Source of the DNA: Antedon mediterranea
Taxonomy: Eukaryota > Echinodermata > Crinoidea > Comatulida > Antedonidae
Assembly (NCBI RefSeq): GCF_964355755.1
Contig: NC_092671.1
Location: 5,095,001 to 5,159,000, forward strand
DNA length: 64,000 bases
Direction of reading: 5' to 3'
The notes under the pieces were generated by a model. That model searched no databases and was not told where the DNA came from. It was given only the letters and a program-made list of their open reading frames with translations. Of the stretch, positions 3,401 through 61,500 are shown piece by piece; within the stretch, counting starts at the first letter, position 1, and every line of letters starts with the position of its first letter. Made by a program: the position numbers and the translations under genes.

Positions 3401-6400
3401 ATGAGAAAATAAAATCTATGAAAGAAAAAAGAAAAAGCAGATGTATTGGTGAAACAGCAGCAGAACCGTCAACAAGCAGCTCATCTGAAGAAATAGTTTA
3501 TTCTAATTCTAAGAGTTGCCAAGTAAGCTCAGTACAAGAAACTGCTGATCATAAGTTTAAAGTAAGAAATATAGAAGAAAGTTCAAACTTAGAAGAAATA
3601 ACATTATCAAGTGATACTTTAAGTACCAGTGACATCGAGGCAGGGCTAGATTTACCAATAAGTACTGAAAAAGTTGCAGTGGCTAAAAAAAGTTGGAAGA
3701 TAGAAGTAGTTTCTTTAATATCAGATTCAGATACTGACACTAATTCTGTATTAAAATCTGTACCAGAGACTGGTAACAGAAGTGACCTTATGCCACAAAG
3801 ACTGGAAAGTGAACAAAGTAAAAAAACACCTGTAAATCACCACCATCAAACGTATGTTAATGCAATAAAAGAGGTTGCCAGTACATCCAAAGTTACATCT
3901 ACAGGAGCTGTCAATTTGAAAATTCATAAACAAGTTAGATCAGAACAGGCAGTCACTGCTGGTCTTCAAAGTACAGCTGCCTCTACAGTTGCCCATAAAC
4001 AAGTTAGATCAGAACAGGGAGTCACTGCTGGTCTTCAACAGACAGCTGTATCTACAGTTGCCCAACATCAAGTTAGATCAGAACAGGTAGCCACTGTTGG
4101 TCGTCAAAGTACAGCTGTCTCTACAGTTGCCCAACATCAAGTTAGATCAAAACAGGTAGCCACTGTTGGTTGTCAAGGTACAGCTGTCTCTACAGTTGCC
4201 CAACATCAAGTTAGATCAGAACAGGTAGCCACTGTTGGTCGTCAAAGTACAGCTGTCTCTACAGTTGCCCAACACCAAGTTAGATCAGAACAGGCAGCCA
4301 CTGTTGGTTGTCAAAGTACAGCTGTCTCTACAGTTGCCCAACATCAAGTTAGATCAAAACAGGTAGCCACTGTTGGTTGTCAAAGTACAGCTGTCTCTAC
4401 AGTTGCCCAACATCAAGTTAGATCAAAACAGGTAGCCACTGTTGGTTGTCAAGGTACAGCTGTCTCTACAGTTGCCCAACATCAAGTTAGATCAAAACAG
4501 GTAGCCACTGCTGGTCATTATCAAAGAACAGCTGTATCTACAGTTGCCCAACACCAAGTTAGATCAGAACAGGCAGCCACTGTTGGTTGTCAAAGTACAG
4601 CTGTCTCTACAGTTGCCCAACATCAAGTTAGATCAAAACAGGTAGCCACTGTTGGTTGTCAAGGTACAGCTGTCTCTACAGTTGCCCAACATCAAGTTAG
4701 ATCAAAACAGGTAGCCACTGCTGGTCATTATCAAAGAACAGCTGTATCTACAGTTGCCCAACACCAAGTTAGATCAGAACAGGCAGCCACTGTTGGTTGT
4801 CAAGGTACAGCTGTCTCTACAGTTGCCCAACATCAAGTTAGATCAAAACAGGTAGCCACTGCTGGTCATTATCAAAGAACAGCTGTCTCTACATTTGCTC
4901 AACACCAAGTTAGATCAGAACAGGCAGCCACTGTTGGTCGTCAAAGTACAGCTGTCTCTACAGTTGCCCAACATCAAGTTAGATCAGAACAGGTAGCCAC
5001 TGCTGGTCATTATCAAAGAACAGCTGTCTCTACAGTTGGCCAACATCAAGTTAGATCAGAACAGGTAGCCACTGCGGGTCATTATCAAAGAACAGCTGTC
5101 TCTACAGTTGCCCAGCACCAGAGATCCTCAGAAAGTGGAGAACATAATGTCCATAGATGGCAGAGTGTTGAAATCAATCTTAAACCCACTTATAATGTTA
5201 AGTGTGAAGGTCTTGTTAATGTCATCTTGCACTGGAAACCTGAGTGGTTAGAACAACATGAAGGTAATTGTTTGTTTTTTTTTATTATTATTATTATTTC
5301 TTAGTTGAAAGGTATTCTCCAGTTTCATTCGTCAAAATTTGTATAGCACAGAACAAATCCTAGACATACTCACTTTTAATAATCTCTTTTCTTGAATGCT
5401 GACACTTTATAATTCTCCTATAAACCACTTCCAAAAACTTTTGTTTCAATTACCTTCCTCATTACATCAATTAGCTGTTACTGAATCTCTTCCCTATCTT
5501 TATCATCTATTGACTCTCTTCCTGCTATTTATCTTTAATTCTTTTTTTGTTTTGAATATTTAATTTAATTTATTTTATATACAATAATTGTTTTTTTGTT
5601 GTATATACATGTCTAAATATATTGTTTATTATATATTTATTTTAGTTAATATCATGGAACTGCTGACTCTTGTAGTTATAGTAATCTTGTTTGCTTTAGA
5701 AGTCTCTGACCAGTTCATATCTGTATATTTTATATTATGGTTTGTTGGTAAAAAATTCTCAGTGAAAATTCCAACAAGCATTCTAGGTACTTTATATAAC
5801 TGAGTTTTATAAAGTATTAGGGGACTATTTAAATGTCTACTGAATTATACTTTTGATATTCTTATATAGTGAGACAAGAAGAAATTCTCAGGCCCTTGGG
5901 GTTGAATGTTCCATTGAGAGAAAATCCTAATCTGTTTAGTTCCATTGATGAATACTACAGAGGGTTTGTGCCACTGCTTCTCCTAGAAACTTGGAGTGAA
6001 GTAAGTTTTGTTGAGTAACAATTGTTTGTGAAGTTGCATAGAGAAAGAGACAAAGTGCTGGTTCTTCCAGTCTATGGTCGCACAGAAAAAGCTTATCTTT
6101 CAGGCCACGGTTTCACAAAAAGAGCTGGTTCTTTCAGGGTATAGTCGCACAGAAAGAGCTTATCTTTCAGTCCACAGTTTCACAGAAAGAGATGGTTCTT
6201 TCAGGCTATGGTCGCACAGAAAGAGCTTATCTTTCCGGCTACGGTTTCACAGAAAGAGCTAGTTATTTCAGACTATGGTTTTTACAGAAAGAGATGGTTC
6301 GTTGAGACTTATGGTCACTTAGAAAGAGCTGGTTCTTTCAGGCTATGGTTTTTACAGAAAGAGCTGGTTATTTCAGACTACGGTTTTTACAGAAAGAGCT

Positions 6401-9400
6401 GGTTATTTCAGACTATGGTTTCTACAGAAAGAGCTGGTTCTTTCATGCTATGGTCACATAGAAAGAGCTGGTTCTTTCAGGTTATGGTCACACAGAAAGA
6501 GCTAATTCTTTCAGGCTATGGTCGCACAGAAAGAGCTGGTTCTTTCAGACTATGATCACATAGAAAGAGCTGGTTCTTTCAGGCTATGGTCGCACAGAAA
6601 GAGCTGGTTCTTTCAGACTATGATCACATAGAAAGAGCTGGTTCTTTCAGGCTATGGTCGCACAGAAAGAGTTGGTTCTTTCAGACTATGATCACATAGA
6701 AAGAGCTGGTTCTTGTGTGTTTAATGTACTGTTTCTGATTTCAGGTAGTTCAGGAATACCCTCAAAACAAAAAAAACAAATTACGTTGTCGATGCATAGG
6801 GTGTCCTGGTTGCTTTATAAAATGCCAGGGTAAGATTTTATTTATTATTTAGAAAGAATTCAAACCTTCCAACTTTTCCAATTAGAATAGAATGTTGTTC
6901 CTTGTGGTCAGTTTTGATTTTTCTTTTTTAGCAATGTCAGGAGAACAGGAGACATACCCAGCGGTCAGTGATTTAGTTATCTTGTCACCGAATAAACCTA
7001 GAAAGGACAACAACTACTTTGTATTTGGTATCATACGTGATCGGAAAATTGAAAATGTGTTAAAAGATAAAAAAACAGGTGCGAATAAAATAAATGAAGG
7101 GAATATTCTGTAATAGTGTTTTTGGAAAGAGAAATAATTTCATCACTTCAAGGAAAATGTTTTCTAATATAGTAGTGCTATATCCTATAGCCATGAAATC
7201 TATGCAGATTGAAGGATCTCAATAGTTATGGTGGTGGAAGAAGTCTTCTTGAATAACAACATCAGAACACTTATGGCGTGTGTGCACTTAAAAGAACCCA
7301 TTGCATGAAGAGTATGGGGTTACTTCAGTATCCAGTTGTGTTTACAGCAGTTCATGATGTTTTATTTATTATTTATACCGGGTGACCTCTTCCGTCAAAG
7401 ACTGGTCTCCCAGACGGCCCAGATATGATGAGTGGACGTGTGTGAAAAGTAATTTGTTTGTTTTTTCAATATATGTTTCTATTTATAAGAAATTTTAATT
7501 TAATTTTTTTCTTTTTAACAGTTAAATTGATTTACAAGTTGCAAATAGAGACAGACATTTCACAATATATTTCTTATGATGTTGATATGAAAATGCAGGT
7601 ATGTTTAAAAATATATTGTCCTTCTGGACAAATGTTTAATTTTATTGTCATATAATAGTTTAATATTTACTTTGATCAAGAATTGGATTGAGAAAGAAAT
7701 TATTTACATGAAAAAGGGTAAGGTTGAAGTGAAAAATCAACTGGACAGGTTAAATTGGTTAAATTTTACTGTTTGTCTTTATAAAACTGCAAGCAAATCT
7801 GATTTTATTAAGTGATGTTACAGTGAAATCAAGAGTTGTAAGAGACACATCACATATTTTAATGGATTTATTTTTGTGCTTGTAGGTTGTTGCAAGTTTG
7901 GTTTCAAATCTGCGAGTCTTTTCTATTATTGAAGATCTACCGAAACTTGTACTGGCGCGAGATATTTTGTACCCCAGAAAACGGCGTAAAATACAGACAA
8001 TCCCTAGCCTTTGTCCAATCACAACGGTTTGTACACTTTAGTTTTCAATAACAGTGTAAAGACATTTAATAATATTTTTGAATGACTGTTTATATTTGTT
8101 GAACATTCGATTTGAATTTGTGGCACTTACAAAAAATGGTGCGGTCCAGAAACAATATCTTAATATAAAATGTAAACAAAAACAAACATAACTTATAATA
8201 AAGTTATATTTGACATTGTTTAAATGAAAAATATATTTTTTTTTATAGCTTCCTACCAAATATTTCCCAAATTTAGGCAAAGTTGCTTACCACTAACGTC
8301 CTATTTCTGTCATATTCTAGACTTGAATCCACAATCTCTCAATCACTAGTAATTATAATTTTGTTTTTGTTATTATTTAGAAGCTTAACGATTCTCAAAC
8401 AAAAGCTGCAGATAACATTTTTACCTGTGTTGAGAGTGCGTATGGAATCCCTCATATCAATTTACTGCATGGTCCGCCAGGCACTGGAAAAACACGGACA
8501 ATTGTTAACATCATTGAAAGAATTTTAAAGGCAAGTCATTTTTTCCTTTGCATTCATTTTTTTGTTTTACAATCTCTATTTGTGAAGGTTCATAAGTTTG
8601 GGACCCCTTATTGGAAAGATAGCCAACTACTTCCTAAATATAACTAAACCTAACCCTCTAAATAATCTCTCTCTCACTATAAAGTAAAAGAACTTGCTAA
8701 TGGGATTCGAACCACATACATTGACATGTAAAGTCCACAGTCTAATTCACTTGACTACACAGACGGATCGATAGAAACAGTTTCCAATAGCAAATTGTAG
8801 TTTCATTTCATTTTCATTTCAAAAGACATTTATTTTCCTCCATGCATTACAATACAAAATAGTATACAGAAATGATAATGTAAAATAATTAAGATTATGA
8901 TGATTGTTGGATGGACAAAAGAAAAGAGAATAAAAATAAAAAAATAGGCTATGAAGGAAGATCATAATCTCGAGAAGATGTGGGTATCTTGTGCTAGGTA
9001 TGCCTATGCAAATAAAATGGGTATGTGTATAACAATGGGAATTAAGAGAAACAAGCAATAAAAAAAAAGACGCACAGACAAGGGAAAAAAAAATATTTAA
9101 AATAAATAAAAAATAAATAAATAAATAGAAAAGAAGAAAAAAAAAGAATAGTTACCTCAATTCTTACGTCGCACTTTATGGATATGACTAATAAATATTC
9201 AGGTTTATTTTGTGACGTTTCATGAGGGGTCCCCAACTTATGTACGGAAAAAAATATCGCACCCTGGCTATTTTAATATCTTATATGAGTTAATATCACA
9301 TATATATACCATTATGTTTTAAAACCCTGGAATGTTAAATTTGCTCAAATATATTCTCTAATGTAAAACGGTACTTTTTATTCAATTCAAAATGACTGAC

Positions 9401-20781: not shown

Positions 20782-20791
20782 GCATTCAAAC

Positions 20792-22206
20792 GGTTCTAGG
20801 ACACCTACCCCCTAGACAGTTACCCCCCCCCCCCCGGATGTTTACCACCCGGACAACTACCCCCTTAGGACAACTACCCCCTTAGGACAACTACTCCCCG
20901 GACAACTACCCCTTAGGACAACAACCCCCGGACAACTACCCCCTTAGGACAACTACCCTGGTCAATTACCCCCTACCACCCCCCCCCCCCTCTCCCAATC
21001 CAAAAGTAGACAAATATATAGGACCGGTTTATGTAAAAATGAAATCATCTGTTTTTAACGGGAGACCTATATTTGGGTCTCCCTTTTCGTATATTAGGAT
21101 CTCCCTTTTCGTATAGTGTGGTCTCTCTTTTTGTATATTGGGTCTCCCTTTTCGTATATTTAGGTCTCCCATTTCGTATATTTGGTCTCCCTTTTCGTAT
21201 ATTTAGGTCTCCCTTTTCGTATAGTGGGGTCGCCCTTTTCGTACGTGGGTCTCCCTTTTCGTATATTTAGGTCTCCCTTTTCGTATTGGGTCTCTGGTCT
21301 CGGGTCTCTTGTTTCGAAACACCCGTTTTTAACCGGTTATTCTGTTTAACAGCACGCTAGACCCTAGATGTGCTAGATTTTTTATTGAAAAAACGGCCTG
21401 GGCTGTTTATTGTTTAGGTGGTTTTTAGGTGGACATTTATTGGAAGAAAGTTGTTTATTCAATGGGAGGGGGTATAATCTAATGGAAATAGACGCCGATT
21501 ATTCCATATGATGTGTCATGGGAGTGACATGGTCATCGTTTATTTGAGGGGAATTTATTTAAAGATCGCCGTTTATTCGGTGAGTGAACATTGAGGTCAA
21601 ATATGAAAAGTGATATTATTCTTCAAGTGTACAAAAATACAAATGACAAATTTGAGACAAAAATTAATTCTTTTAAGACCAGTGGTTATCGAAGCATTGT
21701 CCTGACGCAAAAATTATTATTATTATTAGCGAACCCAGTAAACTTTATAGTAAATACAGGGAGTACTATATAATACGTTCGACTATCCTATGATCATGTG
21801 TGACAATCTTCAGTTTATACCAGGCTATATTTATGTTCAATCTTTTACTTTTGTTTACAATAATGAATAGTAATTCGTCAAAGTAACGAATTAAAATATA
21901 GTTATTAATTCCTATTATACGCTGTTGCAGAGTCAGGTAATTGTCCGGGGGTAATTGTCGGGGGGTAATTGTTCATAGGGGGTAATTGTCCGGGGGTAGT
22001 TGTCCAGGGGGTAGTTGTCCAGGGGGTAGTTGTCCTAAGGGGGTAGTTGTCCGGGGGGTAGTTGTCCTAAAGGGGTAGTTGTCCTAAGGGGGTAGTGGTC
22101 CAGGTGGTGGTTGTCCGGGGGGTAGTTTTCCAGGGGGTGAATTTCCAGGGGGTGAATATCCAGGGGGTGAATATCCAGGGGGCCGGGCGGGGTGAATATC
22201 CGGATC
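20792..22206. mobile_element. Foldback-type transposon with minisatellite arms, inserted in the ACP-1 5' flank
   Basis: The left arm (about 20795-20990) is tandem GGACAACTACCCCCTTA; the right arm (about 21930-22200) is its inverse complement, GGGGGTAGTTGTCCTAA, ending in GGGGGTGAATATCCA variants. Between them lie a second tandem array (21060-21310, GGGTCTCCCTTTTCGTAT, about 11 units) and about 600 bp of unique sequence without a recognisable transposase. It is flanked by the direct repeat GCATTCAAAC at 20782-20791 and 22207-22216. The paralogous site in module 2 (39462-39471) has a single copy and no insert, so this is a real insertion with a 9-10 bp target duplication. Minisatellite inverted arms plus a 9-bp-class duplication recall Drosophila FB elements (Mutator-related). 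Confidence 0.8.
21060..21315 (+). repeat. About 22-bp tandem array inside the foldback element
   Basis: About 11 units of GGGTCTCCCTTTTCGTATAT with spacers of 0-3 bases. It lies only on the left side of the foldback element; no inverse partner was found on the right. Confidence 0.88.
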
Positions 22207-22285
22207 GCATTCAAACAACTTTTTTTGTCTATAGAGGGCGTTTTTTTTTTAAAGACTAAACAAAAACACGACGGCAAAAAATAAA

Positions 22286-25200
22286 ATGGAATCGTTTGGT
22301 TCTTCAAAAATGAAATCATTAAAAAATGTATTGTTAATTATGTTTTTCTTACATGAAATATCTATTAGTTTTGCAGAAAAAAATTTAAGACAGGTGCATG
22401 TTGTAAGTATTGTGTCTAATTGTATAAATATGCAGGCTCTGCTTTCTTCCTAAACCTAGCTTCTAGGCTAGCCTAGCTAAATAAAAAATAAAAAGGGCAC
22501 CGGAACACGATCGGATGAGCCTGCAATCTGTCGGCATTGCTGACTTAAGGGTTGACGGGTATAGGCCTAGGCCTAACAATTTTAATTATTATTCAGTGTT
22601 AGTTGACCAATTAGTATTTATTTCTTAGTATATTTAAATGTAGCCTAATTATTGCTTAAAAATGGAGTGTCAAGTGAAGAATTTTAATACTGTATTATTG
22701 TATAGAAATATACCTGTACCTAGGCCGGAGTATGGTCGAAGCGGCCGCCAACCAAAGCGGCCGCCAGTTTAATATCGTCATTTGTATGGAACGCCATGTG
22801 CGCTTTAATCTTTGATTGTCGTTGTCAACGCCATGGCCTATGGTGAGTTGAGTTACAGCTAAATAAATATAAGCCAACTCATGTACTACTATCAAATCTT
22901 TATATTTATATTTCTGAATCCTTATACAGTATTGCAATAATAATTTACGTATACGGTATAGGTATTGCCGAATCTTTATATCTCGTTTATATACTATTGA
23001 ATCCTTATACAGTATTTGCAATAATAATAATAATTTACGTACGGTATTGCCGAATCTTTATATCTCATTTACATACTATCGAATTTTATACAGTATTGCA
23101 ATAATAATTTACGTACGGTATTGCCGAATATTTATATCTCATTTAAATACTATTGAATTTTATACAGTATTGCATTAATAATTTACGTACGGTATTGCCG
23201 AATCTTTATATCTCGTTTACATACTATCGAATCTTTATACAGTATTGCATTAATAATTTACGTACGGTATTTCCGAATATTTATATCTCATTTATATACT
23301 GTACTATCGAATCTTGGTTTTTATTATTAGTAATGCACTTGTCAATTGTATGACTCACTATACGACCCCCGGGAGAGGTGCGTCATGGGTGCGTCATTTA
23401 CAAATAATTACTGACGCAGGGGTGCGTCAAAAAACCTAGATGGTACGTCACATCAATGAACAAGGTGTGTCAATGTCCGTCACTTTACCACCCACCATAT
23501 CATAAACAACATGGTCACAGTGCGTCAAAATGGGTGCGTCATGGTCACCTAAAGGTAAGTCACCTTTTTGATGCACGGGTGCGTCATGGTATTCAAAAGT
23601 ATGACGCACATCGGACAAATGACGCACCTCTCCCGGGGGTCGTATAGTGGGTCACACAATTGACAAGTGCATAATAGGGTGTGTTATACATTTAAGTGTT
23701 ATTCCATTGTAATATATTGTTTGTGTTTTCAATAAAGCAACATGGGACGCGCACCTAATGTGCAGCAGCACTATTGCTGACCGTCAGTCGAGTTATTAGC
23801 AGAAATTCGCGTAATTAATTACCGTATCAAACAGACACTTTCATCTTATTTTAGTATTTAAAACTCATTTTCAATTGATCAATATTTAAATATCTGAAGT
23901 AATAAAATAGTGTAGGATATTAAATAAATTGCTGTCATCATGTTAATTGTAATTAAATTATGATCGCGAACACTACTATAGTTACTTTACTAATTAATTA
24001 ATATACAATAACAAATATTTTTAATTATTAATATATTTATATATTTTGATATACTTTATTGATTGGTTTATTTATATATAATTCTTAATAATTGGCTTAT
24101 TATTATATTATATTAATATACAACATAAACACCGCAATGTATTTTATAGACTTTATTAAACATATGTATATCATTTAGAACAGAAAATAAGTAATCATCG
24201 ATTCGCCCTTTCGTTTAAAAGAACGTACGCGTATCACATTCAATCTGTAAAAAAAAGAGAATAAATTACATAATAATGTAGATTGTTATTTACGTCCGAG
24301 GTAAATAAAACCTTTCGAAACAATGACAATCAAAGATTACAAAACAACGACAACCAAAGCGCACACGGCGTTCCATACAGATTACCGTTATTGAACTAGC
24401 GGCCGCTTTAGTTGGCGGCCGTTTCGACCGTAAGCCCCTAGGCCATGGAGGTATAAAAATATATATTATACCTCCATGTATAGGCTAAGGTCCTCTAGCC
24501 GCTGTAATATATAAAGTAATTAATTTGAATAAAAATGTTGGCATTTTCACCATGTATAATGCATGGCCATGTGGTTTAATTGTGGCAAAACAAATGGTGA
24601 ATAAAAAACGCCGTGGTTAGGATTCCGACACCGGAACTCAACTGCCTAGCGTTAGGGAATCCGACACGCTATTGCGCATGTCCAGAGCGAGGTAATTGGC
24701 GACTCTATACTTATCAACAGCTAGCGATGGGTCATTTCATAGCTGCGCCACACAGCGAACTATAATCTTTGGCCTAGATGCCTACTAATAGTAATACGGG
24801 ATCCACTTAGACGTGACCAGTGGGCCTATTTATTTTGTAATTCATATTTATAAACTTCATATAATTATGAATTATATAATTACATGACTAGTTTATGATT
24901 TTTCAAGTACAAAATAAAAGATTTCATATAACGCATTATACTGTAAAAGTGTACATAACATGCAATCACAAGTTGATTTGTTGACACGGCAGCCACACCG
25001 CGGCGTGGATGTGTGAAAAAACTGTTCGGGAAGTCGGGGTCAGACTAATTACAGCATTACAATTCTTAGATAGATACTGATTCTTATTAATATCATAATA
25101 ATTATTTTAACGCTTGGCGTAGTCGTATTTTAATTATTAATTATTCACTTCCCAGAGCTCTGGGCATGCGCAATAGCGTGTCGGATTCCCTAACGGTGGG

Positions 25201-28200
25201 CAGTTGAGTTCCGGTGCCGGAATCCTAACCACGGCGAATAAAAAAAGCTGGTCTGACCCTACAGTACCTAGCCTAGTTGTCAAGATGATTTTGAGTAAAT
25301 AAAAATATAACAAAAGAAAATGGTACGCCACATCAATGAACAATGTGTGACAAAACCAGGCATCATCATGGTGACGGAACAGTTTCACATTTGAAGCTAC
25401 TTTCTGTATTCTTCTAGTTTCCAGCCTGCATGCCGCTAATTTTCATTTGTTTTTTTAAGTTATATCGCCATGGAAATAGGTCTCCAGCTAACAGTTATCC
25501 TAAAGATCCATACAATGAAACAGTTTGGCCACAAGGATTTGGAATGCTAACACAGGTACAGTAAAGATTCGTAGTCTCCATGGTAGTAGTGGCACAGTAG
25601 CTGGGCACAGTAGCTGGGCACAGTAACATGCTTACTTTACAATGTTTTTTTGTTCATATCCTGCCTCAAGGATTTTTTATATGTTGTCATGATAAGTGGA
25701 GGCCATTTTTTTTTATTTGAAGATTTTTTTGTTTAAACTCTGTTATAAACTTACTGTATAATACATTTTGATTAATTACTTCAGAACATAAGATAATCTT
25801 TTTGTTTCTATCTAAAAATTGTGAAGAAATATAAACTTACTGGAAATTGTAGTCCATTATCAATTGGTATTTTCTGGAACATATGCAGAATTTTATATTC
25901 AAAACATTCTAACTGTAGTAACTGGTATCCATTCCCACTATGTAGCTAATTATACATTTTAATTATGCAGAATGTTGCCCCTCAACATATTGTAACTTCA
26001 TCATTCATTGTTTTTTTATATTTATATATATATTTATACAGCTATTTGTAACAGATGTAAGCTTGTTTTCCAGTCGACGTTAGTGTAACGTCGACGCTAT
26101 CATCGTTAAACGTTAAAAGTTCAACGACGAGTGTTTGAAAACGATCAAGTTAAAATAATGAATAGCGAGTACCTTTTCTTGTAAATCGTTAACATTTCAA
26201 TGTTTACGTAGATGATCGCCGATTATTGTTAACGATAGCGTCAACAGGAAAACAGGCTTAATACATAATTAAAATTAATTCATAATCTTAGCAAGGAATG
26301 AATCAGCATTACGAGCTTGGGCAGTGGTTACGGAAGCGGTACATAGAAGACGTCAAATTCTTGCAGCCATCATACGTTGCGAAGGATATCGTTATACACA
26401 GCACAGACACTCATCGTACTGTTATGTCGGCACAAAGTAACCTGGCTGGAATGTTTCCTCCGAGTGGTCGTCAAATTTGGGACAAAAACCTATTATGGCA
26501 ACCGATTGGTATCTTCACATGGCCTAGAGATGAAGACCCTGTAGGTGTATAATTTTGTAGAACCTAAAACCCTATAAAGGATATAGATAGATGGAGATAC
26601 CATCAATCAGGACCCAGTATTTAAGTGCCCCCGCTCAATAAAAGTGTCCACTGAGTAGGGGTTGGCCATATTGTTTTGTTTATTAAACATTCTCCACACA
26701 TTATTATTGAACATCAAGTAAAATATTTAATGTTTAGAAGGAAGCCTAAATAAGTTTAAAGAAACTTTATGCCTAGGCTCCCAGAAATAAATGAAATAAC
26801 AATGTAGTTAGACATATTGCCCATTGTTCATTTCATGAGAATATGTCCTCTGGTTTTCCCTGAATAGTGATGTCCCAAATAAAAATATTTATCAAAACAC
26901 AAAAGCTTGTAGGATTAAACTTTAAAACTAGTGTATAAAGTTCTACAGTTATCTTTCTTTTTGTTTTTTAAATATAGAATTTGCCTTCTTTGTTTACAGT
27001 AATTAACTGAATTAAAAGCTTAGGAACAATTTTGTTTTCACAGGTTTTAAAATCACGTATACCTTGCCCGAAACGAGATATTATGATTGAAGAAAAAACC
27101 AAGCCTCTGTATGATCAGTTTAATAAAAAACACAAGGTAACAAATAAATAATGGCATAAAAATACAGGAAGCCTGATATCCCAAATCTTATTATAATTTG
27201 AGTAGGAGAAAAAAATACTTGTTATTGAAAACTTGTCAGTGAGTAAATGGGAAAAAAATATCACTGCTGCTGTTTCAATTTTTCGATAAAATATATATTT
27301 TACAAAAATCACTCAAAAAAACAAGTGAACAAGCCCACGCTATTTCACATGGTATTAATTTCTTTTGTATATTGTTGAGAGACACTCCTTTCCACGTACT
27401 CCACCCACATAAAAAGCGGATTTTTATTATAATTTGAGTTTCAGCGGCCTTTTTCCGAGTGTAAACAAAATTGTTGGTCCTTCAAAAAAAGTCTTGGTTT
27501 TAAGCGACTTTTCAGAGAATCCGGTATTGGGAGAGTTACAGTAGTGTTCTGGGATAAAAACTTTCTAATTACTTTTGTTTTTTGTACTAAAAATTATAAA
27601 ATTATTTATGTATATAACAGGTCATTTGTTATCATCCTAGTATAAACAGTGCCGTTATACTCTCGGATTAGATTTAATCATATACATTTTTTTAAATATA
27701 CAAACAACAATGTACATTTTTTCTTCTTTTTACAGAAAATAATTGATTATATTTCTCAACATAGTGGTGTTAAAGAACAAATACATTCACTTGGGCTAGT
27801 TGCAGATGCGTTATATTTTGAGGTTTGTAACAATTCGTTTTTTCACAATTACCTAAGCAAATATTTTTGTTCTTAAATCTTAAAGGACGAATTCATTCTA
27901 CTATAAGATTAAAAGAACTGGTTTGATAAAACAAAACCTTATTTTTTCACTTAAGCACTTATTAGATATTGACTTAAGCAAAAAGATTTGATAAATGCCA
28001 GCACTATTCATAAGAATAGTGTTAATCTCTTATTGTCGTTTTAACTATTTATAGAAAGCAGCAAATTTGATATTACCAGATTGGGCACTAAAGAAGGTTG
28101 ATGGCTGGGATGGTACTTATTATCAGTGGACAATACTTCTTAAAAATTACCAGTGGGAAGCTGTGTATCAAAATCTTAGCTCTGAGGTGAAGAAGCTACT

Positions 28201-37242: not shown

Positions 37243-37952
37243 TCATCCCACATTTGTATCAACAATAGCAAACATTTTATGCGTTGATATTTCGTGATCT
37301 TTCTTTGTGTACATCCTTACAGTTTCGTTAATCTGTTTGAGACGAAGGTCATTCGTAAGTAATCGTATAAACGAAGGGTTCGTAAGAGGCGCAGTTATAT
37401 AAAGCACCTCATCTGGTATTACGGATATCAGAGCCAAAATTAAAACCTGCGTTTCTGCTGTGTTGAGAGCATACAAAGGTCCAATACGATGACATTTGGT
37501 TTCTTGTAGAGGGCGTACTACACAGTACCCCATAATTTTATCATCTGAAATAAAAAAAATTATTAAAGAATAAAGTAACATTTTTAAAATAGAATAATTT
37601 TGCAATTTAATCTGTTTGTGAAAATGCATTATCAATTTTTTGCTTAAGTGAAAAACTGGTAAGTGAAAATGCATTTATCAATTTTTTGCTTAAATGAAAA
37701 ATAGTGATCAAACCAGTTTTTATATCTTAAAGAATGGCATTTTTCTCATTTAATAAAACAAATTTGCTTGGTTTATTTTGAAAATTGACTTAAGCTAAAT
37801 CATTGACAGATAATTTATTTGCTAAGCAAGTTGGCGCTGTTATTGGAATTCAAGAGATATTGTGCAGTAGTATATTTGAAATCTAAAATGAAAAAAATGA
37901 AAAGTCTGAGGCAACATGGGGTTTTTAGGATGGGAAATTCAAAGCAAGATGT

Positions 37953-38333: not shown

Positions 38334-38735
38334 CATCATCCCACATTTGTATCAACAATAGCAAACATTTTATGCGTTGATATTTCGTGATCTTTCTTTG
38401 TGTACATCCTTACAGTTTCGTTAATCTGTTTGAGACGAAGGTCATTCGTAAGTAATCGTATAAACGAAGGGTTCGTAAGAGGCGCAGTTATATAAAGCAC
38501 CTCATCTGGTATTACGGATATCAGAGCCAAAATTAAAACCTGCGTTTCTGCTGTGTTGAGAGCATACAAAGGTCCAATACGATGACATTTGGTTTCTTGT
38601 AGAGGGCGTACTACACAGTACCCCATAATTTTATCATCTGAAATAAAAAAAATTATTAAAGAATAAAGTAACATTTTTAAAATAGAATAATTTTGCAATT
38701 TAATCTGTTTGTGAAAATGCATTATCAATTTTTTG
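38334..38735. repeat. 402-bp duplicate of 37241-37642
   Basis: The two blocks read identically by eye across exon 2 and the adjacent intron of the GNAT-A pseudogene, in direct orientation 1093 bp apart. Near-identity points to a recent event or gene conversion. Confidence 0.85.
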
Positions 38736-39239
38736 ATCAGATGTTCTAATCCTTGTTCCTTTTTTTTTCTCATCCACATGACAAAATCCTATATCCAAAG
38801 GAATCACTATATCGGATCTCTCCTATTGTGCCAATAACTTCTGTCAGTGACGTATAGTATAACAATTTATGAAACATCTTTAAATCTGTAGTTTTAGCTC
38901 TACAACCCTCAAGAGCTAAGCTGTTTGCTAGTATGCACGATTCTGATAACGTGCACATTCTATGAACATTGAGAATAATCGTTTTCAGAAGTTTTCTCGA
39001 GGTTTGTTTGAAGAAAGTCGACATTTTTCTGAAATTCAGAATAGAAAGTATATAAGTTGTATTTATATTCTCTTTTTTCATTGTAGTGTAGCTAGTTTAA
39101 TACAAACATTCAAAATCCAACAGAAATAATTATTTGACAGTAGGCCATTTGTATAGCTAACTACTGTATAATAATATGCAAATTAGTATGCAAATTGCGC
39201 ATGGAGATAATTTAGCCTAGTCTTGGCCTAGGCTAATTT

Positions 39240-39470
39240 TACATTTAATATTTTATTGGTTGGAAAGCAAATATGAATACAAAAATGTGACAATGAAATG
39301 ACACAATCAAAAACAAATTTGAAATAATTAATTTTTTCAGAGGAACAATATATCTTTAAAACTGTTACGTCAACAAGCGAGCGGCGTTTTTTGTAAGAAA
39401 TATTTCTTTATTCCAAGATTCACCACCATATTTTGGTTGTTGCATGCATGAGCGCATAATATGGCATTCA
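39240..39470. other. Junction of the two duplicated modules
   Basis: The left part (to about 39300) matches 51430-51600 upstream of the intact GNAT gene, and the right part (from about 39420) matches 20750-20790 upstream of ACP-1. The join of module 1's end to module 2's start therefore lies between about 39300 and 39420. Confidence 0.55.
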
Positions 39471-39538
39471 AACCAACTTTTTTTATCTATAGAGGGCGTT
39501 TTTTTAAAAAGACTAAACAACAAAAACACGACGGCAAA

Positions 39539-52544: not shown

Positions 52545-55500
52545 ATGGGGAAAATATGCAAGATTGTTGTGTGTGGAGGAACTTCTGTTGGAAAGACGTC
52601 CATCCTTCAACAGGCGTTGCATGGCAAAGTAGAGGTATGTGAAAAATAAATTATTAATATTATTGTTTATCTTGATTTTCCTTTTTTTTTGGACATCTAA
52701 GCTATGATTCTGTGTCCCTCTGGTACATTCTATCTATAGTTACTGATTCTTCAGATTCTTCCAAAACTTCTAAACAGCTTTTAAGTTGGTTAACATTCAT
52801 AACTGCTATTACGTATTTTCACTAACCTTTTTTTAATACAGTATATTTAATTAATCTACAACTGAAATAAAGAGCTACGCTTTCAAAGTATTTTTATAAA
52901 TTGACTAAAATTAAAAGATATTGTTTTATTTTTGTACACAGACACCACCATTTAAAACAATTGAAGATATCCATGTTGCAATAATTGACACAGACAGAGG
53001 GGCAAAGGAGAAAGTGCAATTCTATGACACTAAGGGTTTGGTGAGCTGGTTTATTTTTTTATTCTTTGAATTCATGTGATTTTAAAATGTTTTAAATTAC
53101 ACAAGAATCCAAAGAATAAAAGACAACAAAAAACAAACAAAAATCCACTCACATCATTAAAATGATGAATTTTGAAAAAGTTCAGCTGACATGATCTAGC
53201 AAACTCCATATTAATTTTTTTTATTCTTTAGGATGTATCAACATATCAAGAATTACCAAGGCAGTACATACTAATGGCTGATGTAAGATTTAATATTAAT
53301 GAATGTTTATGAGTGGAACATAGAAAGTATTATGAGTTTGAAGGCAAACAGGTCTATTCAACGAAGCGAAGCTGGGTTGAATAAACCAGGTCATCTTTCA
53401 TCATATTTCTTCAATTACATGATTTGTTCTTTATTTTCTAGGGGTTTATTCTCGTATTTAGTCTTGCAAATCTTGATTCTTTTCATCAAATGGAGCAACT
53501 TAGAAAGAGCATAAAAAAAGAAAGAGATTTTAAAGATAAGGTTGGTAATTAATAGGTATCTGATATCTTTGAAATAAGTGTGTAGTTACAGACAATTAGA
53601 AAGTGTTTTATGAACCAATATGACGCTTAAAAACTAATCGATTTTATAAACAATATAAATATGATATGTTTATGAAATATATTGCGTAAATAAATTTATA
53701 TAAATATTGTAGAACACCCTTATTCATGAACACCTCTATTAAGGAGACACTTGTGAAATAAACGAGGAAGAAACAATGTATGTTTTGATTTGATTTGAAT
53801 TTATTAGGGAAACCATCATAAAAAAACATATACAAAGTGATAACATAAATTTCGGACATATAAACAAATAATACATTTATAAAAGATTTTCCAGGATAGC
53901 CCAAAAAGCTTATTAGCTTATTTCCATTGGGATCCTTTTACAATCTAAAATAAACAAGAATATTTCTTACAAAAAACGCTGCTCGCTTATTGTTATTGCT
54001 AAGGTCAAGTCTGGGGGTCACTTCATCACGCCTAGATACTTCAAGTATCCTATTACAAACAAAAACTTCAATGGGCTGTTTTGATAATAATTCAATGATT
54101 ATCTGACAGTGAATTATATCATGGGACTCATAAATACCAGAATGCTTTGGGATTTGTCGTTAGACTCTTTTCTCAGCCGTTTTTGGATTCAACAGGTGGT
54201 ACCAATAAATTATAGTGGAGTTTCCATTTTAACAAAAATGTCAAAGTGTAGTACTATAAAGCTGCTTGATTTCATCTAATGAATGAGTCATCTCGTGTGA
54301 CGTAGCGGGCTAGAGCAGCAGCGTGAAAATATAAACATTACAAAGTATTGCATTAAACACGTAAATATAACAAAAACAATAATATAATGAAACAAGTTAA
54401 ATTTAAAGACTATGATTGACTTATAGTTATTTTGTTAAACAGAAATGTGATTTAACGTTTTTCTTAAAATTAAATTTGTGTTCTATTTGCTGAATGGAAT
54501 GAGGTACAGTAGGTTAGCACTGCGACCAACCATTTCTTCAGAGGATTCAAAGTTCAAAAAACATTTATTTATTCAACAATGGCATTATACAGTATAATAT
54601 AATTATAGGTGTGTACATAAATGAAAACATAGTAATAAGCCATCATTTGGGGTCTTCTCTAGAAGAAAACAAGTTTCTTGTCTCGAGAAAGACCCCAGAA
54701 ACAATACACATACATTTAAACTAATACAATTTACTACATAAAATAAAAAATAAAAACAAAAACGATGAAATAAAAAAAAATAAATAGATACTTTCAGTAT
54801 TCCTATTAATGGGACAATTTCTTGTGAAACAAGGGAGAAGCAATGCGTGTTATAGCAGTACGACCAACCAGTTTTTAGGGAAACCTCTATTAAGGGGACA
54901 CTTGTGAAACAAACAAGGAATGGGCAATGTGTGTTTAGCAGTACGACCAACCAGTTTTTAGGGAAACCTCTATTAAGGGGACACTTGTGAAACAAACAAG
55001 GAATGGGCAATGTGTGTTTAGCAGTACGACCAACCAGTTTTTAGGGAAACCTCTATTAAGGGGACACTTGTGAAACAAACAAGGAATGGGCAATGTGTGT
55101 TTAGCAGTACGACCAACCAGTTTTTAGGGAAACCTCTATTAAGGGGACACTTGTGAAACAAACAAGGAATGGGCAATGTGTGTTTAGCAGTACGACCAAC
55201 CAGTTTTTAGGGAAACCTCTATTAAGGGGACACTTGTGAAACAAACAAGGAATGGGCAATGTGTGTTTGCAGTACGACCAACCAGTTTTTAGGGAAACCT
55301 CTATTAAGGGGACACTTGTGAAACAAACAAGGAATGGGCAATGTGTGTTTAGCAGTACGACCAACCAGTTTTTAGAGAAACCTCTATTAAGGGGACACTT
55401 GTGAAACAAACAAGGAATGGGCAATGTGTGTTTAGCAGTACGACCAACCAGTTTTTAGGGAAACCTCTATTAAGGGGACACTTGTGAAACAAACAAGGAA

Positions 55501-58500
55501 TGGGCAATGTGTGTTTAGCAGTACGACCAACCAGTTTTTAGGGAAACCTCTATTAAGGGGACACTTGTGAAACAAACAAGGAATGGGCAATGTGTGTTAT
55601 AGCAGTACGACCAACCAGTTTTTAGGGAAACCTCTATTAAGGGGACACTTGTGAAACAAACAAGGAATGGGCAATGTGTGTTTAGCAGTACGACCAACCA
55701 GTTTTTAGGGAAACCTCTATTAAGGGGACACTTGTGAAACAAACAAGGAATGGGCAATGTGTGTTTAGCAGTACGACCAACCAGTTTTTAGGGAAACCTC
55801 TATTAAGGGGACACTTGTGAAACAAACAAGGAATGGGCAATGTGTGTTTAGCAGTACGACCAACCAGTTTTTAGGGAAACCTCTATTAAGGGGACACTTG
55901 TGAAACAAACAAGGAATGGGCAATGTGTGTTATAGCAGTACGACCAACCAGTTTTTAGGGAAACCTCTATTAAGGGGACACTTGTGAAACAAACAAGGAA
56001 TGGGCAATGTGTGTTATAGCAGTACGACCAACCAGTTTTTAGGGAAACCTCTATTAAGGGGACACTTGTGAAACAAACAAGGAATGGGCAATGTGTGTTA
56101 TAGCAGTACGACCAACCAGTTTTTAGGGAAACCTCTATTAAGGGGACACTTGTGAAACAAACAAGGAATGGGCAATGTGTGTTTAGCAGTACGACCAACC
56201 AGTTTTTAGGGAAACCTCTATTAAGGGGACACTTGTGAAACAAACAAGGAATGGGCAATGTGTGTTTAGCAGTACGACCAACCAGTTTTTAGGGAAACCT
56301 CTATTAAGGGGACACTTGTGAAACAAACAAGGAATGGGCAATGTGTGTTTAGCAGTACGACCAACCAGTTTTTAGGGAAACCTCTATTAAGGGGACACTT
56401 GTGAAACAAACAAGGAATGGGCAATGTGTGTTTAGCAGTACGACCAACCAGTTTTTAGGGAAACCTCTATTAAGGGGACACTTGTGAAACAAACAAGGAA
56501 TGGGCAATGTGTGTTTAGCAGTACGACCAACCAGTTTTTAGGGAAACCTCTATTAAGGGGACACTTGTGAAACAAACAAGGAATGGGCAATGTGTGTTAT
56601 AGCAGTACGACCAACCAGTTTTTAGGGAAACCTCTATTAAGGGGACACTTGTGAAACAAACAAGGAATGGGCAATGTGTGTTTAGCAGTACGACCAACCA
56701 GTTTTTAGGGAAACCTCTATTAAGGGGACACTTGTGAAACAAACAAGGAATGGGCAATGTGTGTTTAGCAGTACGACCAACCAGTTTTTAGGGAAACCTC
56801 TATTAAGGGGACACTTGTGAAACAAACAAGGAATGGGCAATGTGTGTTATAGCAGTACGACCAACCAGTTTTTAGGGAAACCTCTATTAAGGGGACACTT
56901 GTGAAACAAACAAGGAATGGGCAATGTGTGTTTAGCAGTACGACCAACCAGTTTTTAGGGAAACCTCTATTAAGGGGACACTTGTGAAACAAACAAGGAA
57001 TGGGCAATGTGTGTTTAGCAGTACGACCAACCAGTTTTTAGGGAAACCTCTATTAAGGGGACACTTGTGAAACAAACAAGGAATGGGCAATGTGTGTTTA
57101 GCAGTACGACCAACCAGTTTTTAGGGAAACCTCTATTAAGGGGACACTTGTGAAACAAACAAGGAATGGGCAATGTGTGTTTAGCAGTACGACCAACCAG
57201 TTTTTAGGGAAACCTCTATTAAGGGGACACTTGTGAAACAAACAAGGAATGGGCAATGTGTGTTTAGCAGTACGACCAACCAGTTTTTAGGGAAACCTCT
57301 ATTAAGGGGACACTTGTGAAACAAACAAGGAATGGGCAATGTGTGTTTAGCAGTACGACCAACCAGTTTTTAGGGAAACCTCTATTAAGGGGACACTTGT
57401 GAAACAAACAAGGAATGGGCAATGTGTGTTATAGCAGTACGACCAACCAGTTTTTAGGGAAACCTCTATTAAGGGGACACTTGTGAAACAAACAAGGAAT
57501 GGGCAATGTGTGTTTAGCAGTACGACCAACCAGTTTTTAGGGAAACCTCTATTAAGGGGACACTTGTGAAACAAACAAGGAATGGGCAATGTGTGTTTAG
57601 CAGTACGACCAACCAGTTTTTAGGGAAACCTCTATTAAGGGGACACTTGTGAAACAAACAAGGAATGGGCAATGTGTGTTATAGCAGTACGACCAACCAG
57701 TTTTTAGGGAAACCTCTATTAAGGGGACACTTGTGAAACAAACAAGGAATGGGCAATGTGTGTTATAGCAGTACGACCAACCAGTTTTTAGGGAAACCTC
57801 TATTAAGGGGACACTTGTGAAACAAACAAGGAATGGGCAATGTGTGTTATAGCAGTACGACCAACCAGTTTTTAGGGAAACCTCTATTAAGGGGACACTT
57901 GTGAAACAAACAAGGAATGGGCAATGTGTGTTATAGCAGTACGACCAACCAGTTTTTAGGGAAACCTCTATTAAGGGGACACTTGTGAAACAAACAAGGA
58001 ATGGGCAATGTGTGTTTAGCAGTACGACCAACCAGTTTTTAGGGAAACCTCTATTAAGGGGACACTTGTGAAACAAACAAGGAATGGGCAATGTGTGTTT
58101 AGCAGTACGACCAACCAGTTTTTAGGGAAACCTCTATTAAGGGGACACTTGTGAAACAAACAAGGAATGGGCAATGTGTGTTTAGCAGTACGACCAACCA
58201 GTTTTTAGGGAAACCTCTATTAAGGGGACACTTGTGAAACAAACAAGGAATGGGCAATGTGTGTTTAGCAGTACGACCAACCAGTTTTTAGGGAAACCTC
58301 TATTAAGGGGACACTTGTGAAACAAACAAGGAATGGGCAATGTGTGTTTAGCAGTACGACCAACCAGTTTTTAGGGAAACCTCTATTAAGGGGACACTTG
58401 TGAAACAAACAAGGAATGGGCAATGTGTGTTTAGCAGTACGACCAACCAGTTTTTAGGGAAACCTCTATTAAGGGGACACTTGTGAAACAAACAAGGAAT

Positions 58501-61500
58501 GGGCAATGTGTGTTTAGCAGTACGACCAACCAGTTTTTAGGGAAACCTCTATTAAGGGGACACTTGTGAAACAAACAAGGAATGGGCAATGTGTGTTTAG
58601 CAGTACGACCAACCAGTTTTTAGGGAAACCTCTATTAAGGGGACACTTGTGAAACAAACAAGGAATGGGCAATGTGTGTTTAGCAGTACGACCAACCAGT
58701 TTTTAGGGAAACCTCTATTAAGGGGACACTTGTGAAACAAACAAGGAATGGGCAATGTGTGTTTAGCAGTACGACCAACCAGTTTTTAGGGAAACCTCTA
58801 TTAAGGGGACACTTGTGAAACAAACAAGGAATGGGCAATGTGTGTTATAGCAGTACGACCAACCAGTTTTTAGGGAAACCTCTATTAAGGGGACACTTGT
58901 GAAACAAACAAGGAATGGGCAATGTGTGTTTAGCAGTACGACCAACCAGTTTTTAGGGAAACCTCTATTAAGGGGACACTTGTGAAACAAACAAGGAATG
59001 GGCAATGTGTGTTATAGCAGTACGACCAACCAGTTTTTAGGGAAACCTCTATTAAGGGGACACTTGTGAAACAAACAAGGAATGGGCAATGTGTGTTATA
59101 GCAGTACGACCAACCAGTTTTTAGGGAAACCTCTATTAAGGGGACACTTGTGAAACAAACAAGGAATGGGCAATGTGTGTTATAGCAGTACGACCAACCA
59201 GTTTTTAGGGAAACCTCTATTAAGGGGACACTTGTGAAACAAACAAGGAATGGGCAATGTGTGTTTAGCAGTACGACCAACCAGTTTTTAGGGAAACCTC
59301 TATTAAGGGGACACTTGTGAAACAAACAAGGAATGGGCAATGTGTGTTATAGCAGTACGACCAACCAGTTTTTAGGGAAACCTCTATTAAGGGGACACTT
59401 GTGAAACAAACAAGGAATGGGCAATGTGTGTTATAGCAGTACGACCAACCAGTTTTTAGGGAAACCTCTATTAAGGGGACACTTGTGAAACAAACAAGGA
59501 ATGGGCAATGTGTGTTATAGCAGTACGACCAACCAGTTTTTAGGGAAACCTCTATTAAGGGGACACTTGTGAAACAAACAAGGAATGGGCAATGTGTGTT
59601 ATAGCAGTACGACCAACCAGTTTTTAGGGAAACCTCTATTAAGGGGACACTTGTGAAACAAACAAGGAATGGGCAATGTGTGTTATAGCAGTACGACCAA
59701 CCAGTTTTTAGGGAAACCTCTATTAAGGGGACACTTGTGAAACAAACAAGGAATGGGCAATGTGTGTTATAGCAGTACGACCAACCAGTTTTTAGGGAAA
59801 CCTCTATTAAGGGGACACTTGTGAAACAAACAAGGAATGGGCAATGTGTGTTATAGCAGTACGACCAACCAGTTTTTAGGGAAACCTCTATTAAGGGGAC
59901 ACTTGTGAAACAAACAAGGAATGGGCAATGTGTGTTTAGCAGTACGACCAACCAGTTTTTAGGGAAACCTCTATTAAGGGGACACTTGTGAAACAAACAA
60001 GGAATGGGCAATGTGTGTTATAGCAGTACGACCAACCAGTTTTTAGGGAAACCTCTATTAAGGGGACACTTGTGAAACAAACAAGGAATGGGCAATGTGT
60101 GTTTAGCAGTACGACCAACCAGTTTTTAGGGAAACCTCTATTAAGGGGACACTTGTGAAACAAACAAGGAATGGGCAATGTGTGTTATAGCAGTACGACC
60201 AACCAGTTTTTAGGGAAACCTCTATTAAGGGGACACTTGTGAAACAAACAAGGAATGGGCAATGTGTGTTATAGCAGTACGACCAACCAGTTTTTAGGGA
60301 AACCTCTATTAAGGGGACACTTTCTTGGAAGTATTGCTATATTATATAGTGTATTATTTTTCTTTAGGTATGCATGATAGCTCTTGGCAATAAAGCAGAT
60401 TTAGTGGAAGAACGACAAGTGAGCGCTGAATCTGTCAATACATGGGAAAAGAAACAAAAAGGTAAATTTCAAACCTTGGATCACGATTTCACCCATTACA
60501 TACTTTTGAATACTCTACAGTAAAACCCTTCCTATAAAGTTTACACAAAGAGCAATATATTTCACACTACAGCCAACTCCTATTCAGAGAAGACCATTTG
60601 TTGTCTTTTTTTACTCTGCTTCTCTCTTATCAAAGCTAAAATATCTATTTTTGACAGACAGATTAAAATAATATGTTAGCCCTTTTTAAATCATGAATCC
60701 ACCCCTGTATATAGTTCTCTATATTACAATTATTTTGCTAAGCCCCCTCTTGAGGTTTATGAACTGGGACAAAGTCAACACCAGTGACCGAAAACATGAC
60801 CTAAATTAGCCTGACCACAAATTGTGTTAGCTGGATGATAGACAGGTTGACTTCAATTTTTTGGTGGTATTAACAAGGAACCATTAACCTTCTAAATTAT
60901 GTACTACACGACAATGTTAAGCTTCTTTCAACAGAATTACCGCTGTCAGACATCTCACTGTTGTGTATATTGATACTGTCGTTTAGTTGTCAATCACCCG
61001 ATGCATTGGTGACAGATACGTACCACATTGATAAAATCGCCTAGAAAACCCCCCCTTGTTTGCAAATACCCCTTTCCCATGTGTGTAGTTGTCAGCCCAT
61101 ATTTTCTCATGGTTAATCCGCACCTTAAGTATTTCTTACAAGCCATGACACGATTTGAAATGTCGTTTTGCCAAGAAATAAAATTCAATTTGCACAGAGA
61201 TCTTGAAAAATGTTCTGTATTTTAGGGATACGGAATTAGGTACTTTTAAAATCGTCTGTCATTTGAAATAAAAATTGATCTGCTTTTAGCAAAACTTTAA
61301 AATTTGCTACATCATGATATAGGTATAAACGTAATTGACAGTAGTTTTGTTACTTTAAATTACTTATTCTGCGGGATCGAGTGATGTGTTCCATTTTCAA
61401 GAGTTTTTTTCTTGCTACTGTACATGACAAACAATGTTCTCAGCCTGTTGTTATCATTTCTATTGTTTGTTAGAAAATACAAGCCTTTGCAACAACATTG

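Follow-up and report, generated by a model that had tools for sequence, protein, structure and literature searches.

The closest described family to the element analyzed here is Tm1 of root-knot nematodes, a Mutator/Foldback family of the Phantom subclass (PMC3169594). The inverted ends of Tm1 are composite, with ~14-bp tandem repeats that vary in number and asymmetric terminal motifs; the family shows 8-10-bp duplications (mostly 9 bp) and an empty paralogous site, and a single copy encoding FLYWCH and MULE domains occurs alongside many non-coding derivatives (PMC3169594). The Phantom clade (PMC6446971 Table 1, group 20) is described as having a FLYWCH finger in some members, 8-10-bp duplications, and TIRs of 18-613 bp; it is listed from Platyhelminthes, Crustacea, Arthropoda, Tunicata, and an ichnovirus, with a minisatellite beside the transposase gene in aphids (PMC6446971). 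Foldback anatomy, with tandem repeats in inverted arms, is also found in FB of Drosophila and in Tetris of D. virilis, the latter having ~220-bp units, 8-10-bp duplications, and no transposase found (PMC4079207). Galileo of Drosophila, whose transposase belongs to the P superfamily and which we therefore treat as an analog of mechanism only, carries tandem repeats in its long inverted arms, and the THAP domain of its transposase binds some of these repeats (PMC3688188). Foldback TU elements have been reported from sea urchin, as far as a secondary source relates (Lieberman et al. 1983, cited in PMC4079207).

We analyzed a 64-kb window, by which we mean the whole stretch C2:5095001-5159000, and searched the 354-Mb assembly of 18 contigs to which it belongs. 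Next to an acid-phosphatase gene lies what is almost certainly a non-autonomous, deletion-derived copy of a foldback Mutator-like (MULE) DNA transposon. The features of the locus are as follows.

20783-20791, no strand: left copy of the target site duplication, 9 bp, CATTCAAAC, read directly from the sequence, its edge set by the family left terminus GGTTCTAGGACACC
20792-22207, plus strand: the whole non-autonomous foldback Mutator-like element, 1416 bp, delimited by family termini, flanking duplication, and genome-wide copies
20792-20990, plus strand: left arm, 9 detected units of GGACAACTACCCCC(TTA) type
21068-21286, plus strand: one-sided internal tandem array, 10 copies of a ~22-bp unit, TATATTAGGGTCTCCCTTTTCG
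21302-21931, plus strand: middle region
21936-22207, plus strand: right arm, 13 detected units that are the reverse complement of the left-arm units
22208-22216, no strand: right copy of the target site duplication, 9 bp, CATTCAAAC
22286-22402, plus strand: first coding exon of the adjoining acid-phosphatase gene, start codon at 22286
39465-39473, no strand: unfilled target CATTCAAAC at the paralogous acid-phosphatase gene

The inverted arms of tandem units proposed in an earlier note on this DNA are present. Their 14-17-bp units (GGACAACTACCCCC) face inward, and a local alignment between the left arm and the reverse-complemented right arm scored 206, against a maximum of 46 in 500 dinucleotide-preserving shuffles (mean 28.8, sd 4.3). 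Folding of the strand as single-stranded DNA predicts that the two arms would pair with each other. The internal array, of TCTCCCTTTTCGTAT type, occurs on one side only. The same note had given the duplication as 9-10 bp; the duplication exists, but its length is 9 bp. The canonical right end of the family, CCGGATACG, reads CCGGATCG in this copy, with one A lost, so the G counted as a tenth base is in fact the element's final one; in other copies the right end, ...ATATCCGGATACG, directly abuts each copy's own duplication. CATTCAAAC was found four times in the window: twice flanking the element, once at 39465 in the paralog, and once at an unrelated site, 14291.

A search for a second family copy elsewhere within the 64-kb window found none, but in the genome the element matched 350 times, with the best 40 of 584 candidates scored. 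The left terminus occurred 254 times (31 bases, <=3 mismatches; 0 for a reversed-pattern control) and the right terminus 257 times (24 bases, <=3 mismatches; control, 1). Some of these termini lie in duplicated DNA, since five copies (L042, L043, L045, L047, L048) have one flank in common and four others (L034, L035, L041, L050) nearly share another; independent insertions thus number fewer than 250. Exact 8- or 9-bp duplications flanked 33 of 40 examined copies, 23 being 9 bp, the length the earlier note had suggested looking for at other copies, and 10 being 8 bp. Beside the canonical ends of 30 full copies, including the coding relative L061 described below, the flanks matched at 9/9 positions in 18 and at 8/9 in seven, of which six have exact 8-bp duplications and one a 9-bp duplication with a mismatch. 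When flanks were swapped between copies, 9/9 matches arose in 2 of 870 comparisons and 8/9 matches never. The 10 further copies, paired from terminus coordinates, contributed five exact 9-bp and four exact 8-bp duplications. No clear duplication was present in the full copies L014, L020, L023, and L027 or in L083/L084, and that of L030 is ambiguous, its flank being repetitive.

The window is rich in tandem repeats (31 rows in the tandem-repeat listing), as would suit two inverted minisatellites brought together by chance, or an error of assembly. However, the termini are fixed in hundreds of copies that carry duplications of their own, and there are both a coding relative and an empty site at the paralog; we give such an origin a vanishingly small probability. 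The earlier note had staked its reading on the existence of other copies and on the arm repeats not being an assembly collapse, and both points held.

The family has a constant plan with variable arms. Across 25 measured copies we detected 5-14 units in the left arm and 11-31 in the right, spaced mostly 17 and 15 bp apart, with all detected units facing inward in each arm in 25/25. The outermost ends, GGTTCTAGGACACC and CGTATCCGGATATT, differ, yet align gap-free into the same unit series. The TCTCCC array lies on the left in all 25 copies, the coding relative included. Thus, the internal array earlier called unmatched is indeed one-sided, but is a fixed part of the family. The supposed 600 bp of unique DNA is not unique: the middle (~630 bp) is shared with 28 other copies at 94-97% identity, and its first part (to ~21717) matches a non-coding part of L061 at 92%.

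We also noted several unusual arrangements of copies. Four composites carry two left arms ~670 bp apart (L022 375-2687, reverse strand; G000:C1:4344015-4346279; G000:C1:15570265-15572565; G000:C4:25936288-25938592). The junction TCTCCCTTTTC|GGTTCTAGG is identical in the three that were read (L022, L037/L038, L054/L055), and all four are enclosed by separate outer duplications of 8 or 9 bp; the two-left-arm form itself thus appears to be mobile as one piece. The five copies with one flank in common lie within 1 Mb (G000:C1:10004220-10987392), and that flank, ATAACTGCTTTCAAT, suggests a segmental duplication carrying the element. L021, L024, and G000:C5:8176962-8178651 have the same 9-bp duplication, GCTATAATC, and the same flank where it was read; either insertion occurred repeatedly at one base of a repeat family, or these copies were copied along with that family.

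A transposase-bearing relative, which the earlier note had proposed seeking, exists. A search of the genome for the MULE domain gave 36 matches, the best of them 2.3 kb from a left terminus. The coding element L061, located elsewhere on the chromosome of the focal copy, is 4,659 bp long and has both canonical termini, the arms, the TCTCCC array, and a 9-bp duplication, ATTTAAAAG. With its exons searched separately and the reading frame left unrepaired, it encodes a MULE transposase domain (PF10551, E=3.5e-16) and, upstream of the MULE exon, a FLYWCH zinc finger (PF04500, E=3e-07; L061:3936-4139). The motifs ADGTF, IDYE, and NHVEGWH can be read, and we take them to hold the three acidic residues that a MULE DDE domain should have. 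The zinc-finger and catalytic exons are in different frames, with an apparent break near L061:4690-4707, so we do not claim that this copy is active. No second near-complete coding copy was found in the genome, where elsewhere there are only high-identity fragments of the gene. L062, a more diverged transposase relative at C5:17.81 Mb, was left out of the family evidence; it has none of the exact terminal motifs tried, and its coding part gives only 73-78% matches.

Because L061 shares its ends, arms, and array with the focal copy and encodes a MULE domain, the family is a foldback Mutator-like element. Sequence comparison establishes this kinship between the focal copy and a MULE-coding element with the same ends. 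Two other superfamily assignments have to be weighed. Rehavkus, a sister group of MULEs with 9-bp duplications, long inverted ends, and minisatellites, would as described (PMC6446971, PMC10218199) fit both the duplications and the minisatellite arms seen here. We nonetheless consider a Rehavkus-type element very unlikely: Rehavkus transposases are described with a PHD finger (PMC6446971), whereas L061 combines a FLYWCH finger with a strong MULE match, and its scanned reading frames gave no match to a PHD finger. That 10 of the 33 exact duplications are 8 bp would agree with a P- or hAT-superfamily foldback element with ~8-bp duplications, and Galileo of flies illustrates that foldback arms have arisen in the P superfamily too (PMC3688188). 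Such an assignment is extremely unlikely, however, as the other 23 of 33 are 9 bp and a MULE transposase is the only one that turned up between these ends.

The focal copy, which itself codes for no transposase, and other short copies can be placed relative to the coding element. In two 2-kb copies, L063 and L064, the match to L061 runs up to position ~1,684 of the latter and the right arm follows at once; of the transposase gene, these copies retain just the end. Copies of the focal type keep ~0.9 kb of the left part (arm, array, middle), followed by ~220 bp that adjoin the right arm and are absent from L061, and then the right arm. These non-coding deletion derivatives were presumably moved in trans.

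The foldback reading of the earlier note is thus borne out by the arms, by dispersed copies with their own duplications, and by the coding relative. The assignment to foldback elements follows from long inverted arms of tandem repeats and from dispersed copies with duplications and an empty site, and that to the MULE superfamily from a MULE domain inside the same ends and duplications in the 8-10-bp class. As in Tm1, there are arm units of the ~14-bp class, asymmetric ends, mostly 9-bp duplications, a lone FLYWCH-MULE coding copy, and an empty site. The host differs, however, an additional one-sided TCTCCC array is present, and there are ~250 termini as opposed to tens in Tm1; nor are the sequences of termini and units identical, the Tm1 unit being CGATTCAGTATCCGC (PMC3169594) and the unit here GGACAACTACCCCC. 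The N-terminal FLYWCH finger and MULE domain of L061 resemble Phantom, a likeness of domains and description. The likeness to fly FB, to which the earlier note had pointed, is structural, whereas the transposase type matches Mutator/Phantom elements such as Tm1. Tetris has the same arm anatomy and duplications close to the 8 or 9 bp seen here, but its units are far longer than our 14-17 bp. TU is likewise a foldback element in a marine invertebrate, its arms reportedly built of ~15-bp tandem repeats, a likeness of description; its duplications, reportedly 8 bp, set it apart. If the present host is an echinoderm, the earlier note's suggestion that such architecture is little described in this kind of animal has to be set against the sea urchin elements. 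We conclude that the family is a further foldback MULE, large, recent, and with unusually complete evidence, and not a new class.

The insertion also has an empty counterpart. The adjoining gene encodes a histidine acid phosphatase (later exon 26292-26549, His_Phos_2, E=1.3e-14), and the element lies 69 bp upstream of its start codon. At the paralogous gene a single unfilled CATTCAAAC is found, as had been claimed from the first reading. The upstream flank then described as ancestral does show homology to the paralog, but only for ~57 bp, after which homology ends. With ~57 bp before the insertion and 69 bp after it, the element interrupts a short run of conserved proximal sequence. In the ~630-bp middle, the focal copy is 0.8% away from the family consensus. 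Downstream of the insertion, by comparison, 472 aligned bases show 11% divergence between the two acid-phosphatase paralogs. It follows that the insertion took place long after the gene duplication, in agreement with the relative dating first proposed, and the site in the paralog is best read as a true empty site and not as a loss. In addition, the copies L016/L017 and the copies L011/L012/L015 are identical over ~635 bp of the middle but have different flanks, and we conclude from these sequences that the family has been recently active. The duplications, the empty site, and identical copies at different sites together establish, as read from the genome, that these elements have moved.

That the insertion splits a stretch conserved between the paralogs, and that MULE TIRs are said to carry transposase promoters (PMC6446971), could mean that it has been co-opted as a regulatory or promoter element of the acid-phosphatase gene, or that it silences the gene, which would be compatible with a foldback MULE origin. 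The insertion is young, though, at 0.8% from consensus, and its sequence carries no sign of selection; we regard such a role as unlikely. The two acid-phosphatase paralogs, one filled and one empty, offer a natural test case for what such an insertion does to a gene.

For a foldback MULE, the following course of events would fit. A transposase of the L061 type would bind the arm units and termini, excise the element, and reinsert it by a staggered cut, mostly of 9 bp. The repeated arm units may form a putative array of binding sites that strengthens end recognition, by analogy with Galileo, whose arm repeats bind transposase; for Foldback and Phantom such binding has been described as untested (PMC3688188). 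The arms could lengthen or shorten by repeat slippage or unequal exchange. The focal copy landed upstream of its acid-phosphatase gene after the gene duplication. It is uncommon for a large foldback MULE family with recent activity, such as this one, to have a coding relative that can be found, Tetris having none (PMC4079207). The differing arm lengths of the present copies suit asking whether transposase binds the arm repeats, which for Foldback/Phantom is stated to be an open question (PMC3688188). The locus might represent a foldback MULE lineage with recent activity, from a host group without described ones, with arms that act as tunable transposase-binding arrays, a TCTCCC array with a separate function, two-left-arm composites mobile as units, and a possible effect on the expression of one acid-phosphatase paralog; this full combination we offer as speculative and rather doubtful.

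Several minor observations concern the surrounding DNA. To the left of the coding transposon and outside it, L061 88-807 holds open reading frames of 148 and 90 aa that have no significant Pfam match. In the window, two near-identical open frames of 143-150 aa on the minus strand (37243-37674 and 38336-38788), ~1.1 kb apart, form a local duplication between the two acid-phosphatase genes. An 83-bp satellite occupies 54840-60322, with ~66 copies at 99% identity and a strong GC skew. Long minisatellites are found at 2120-2956, 3931-5114, and 6052-6714, with units of 51, 69, and 34 bp; as 51 and 69 are divisible by three, the first two minisatellites may encode repetitive protein.
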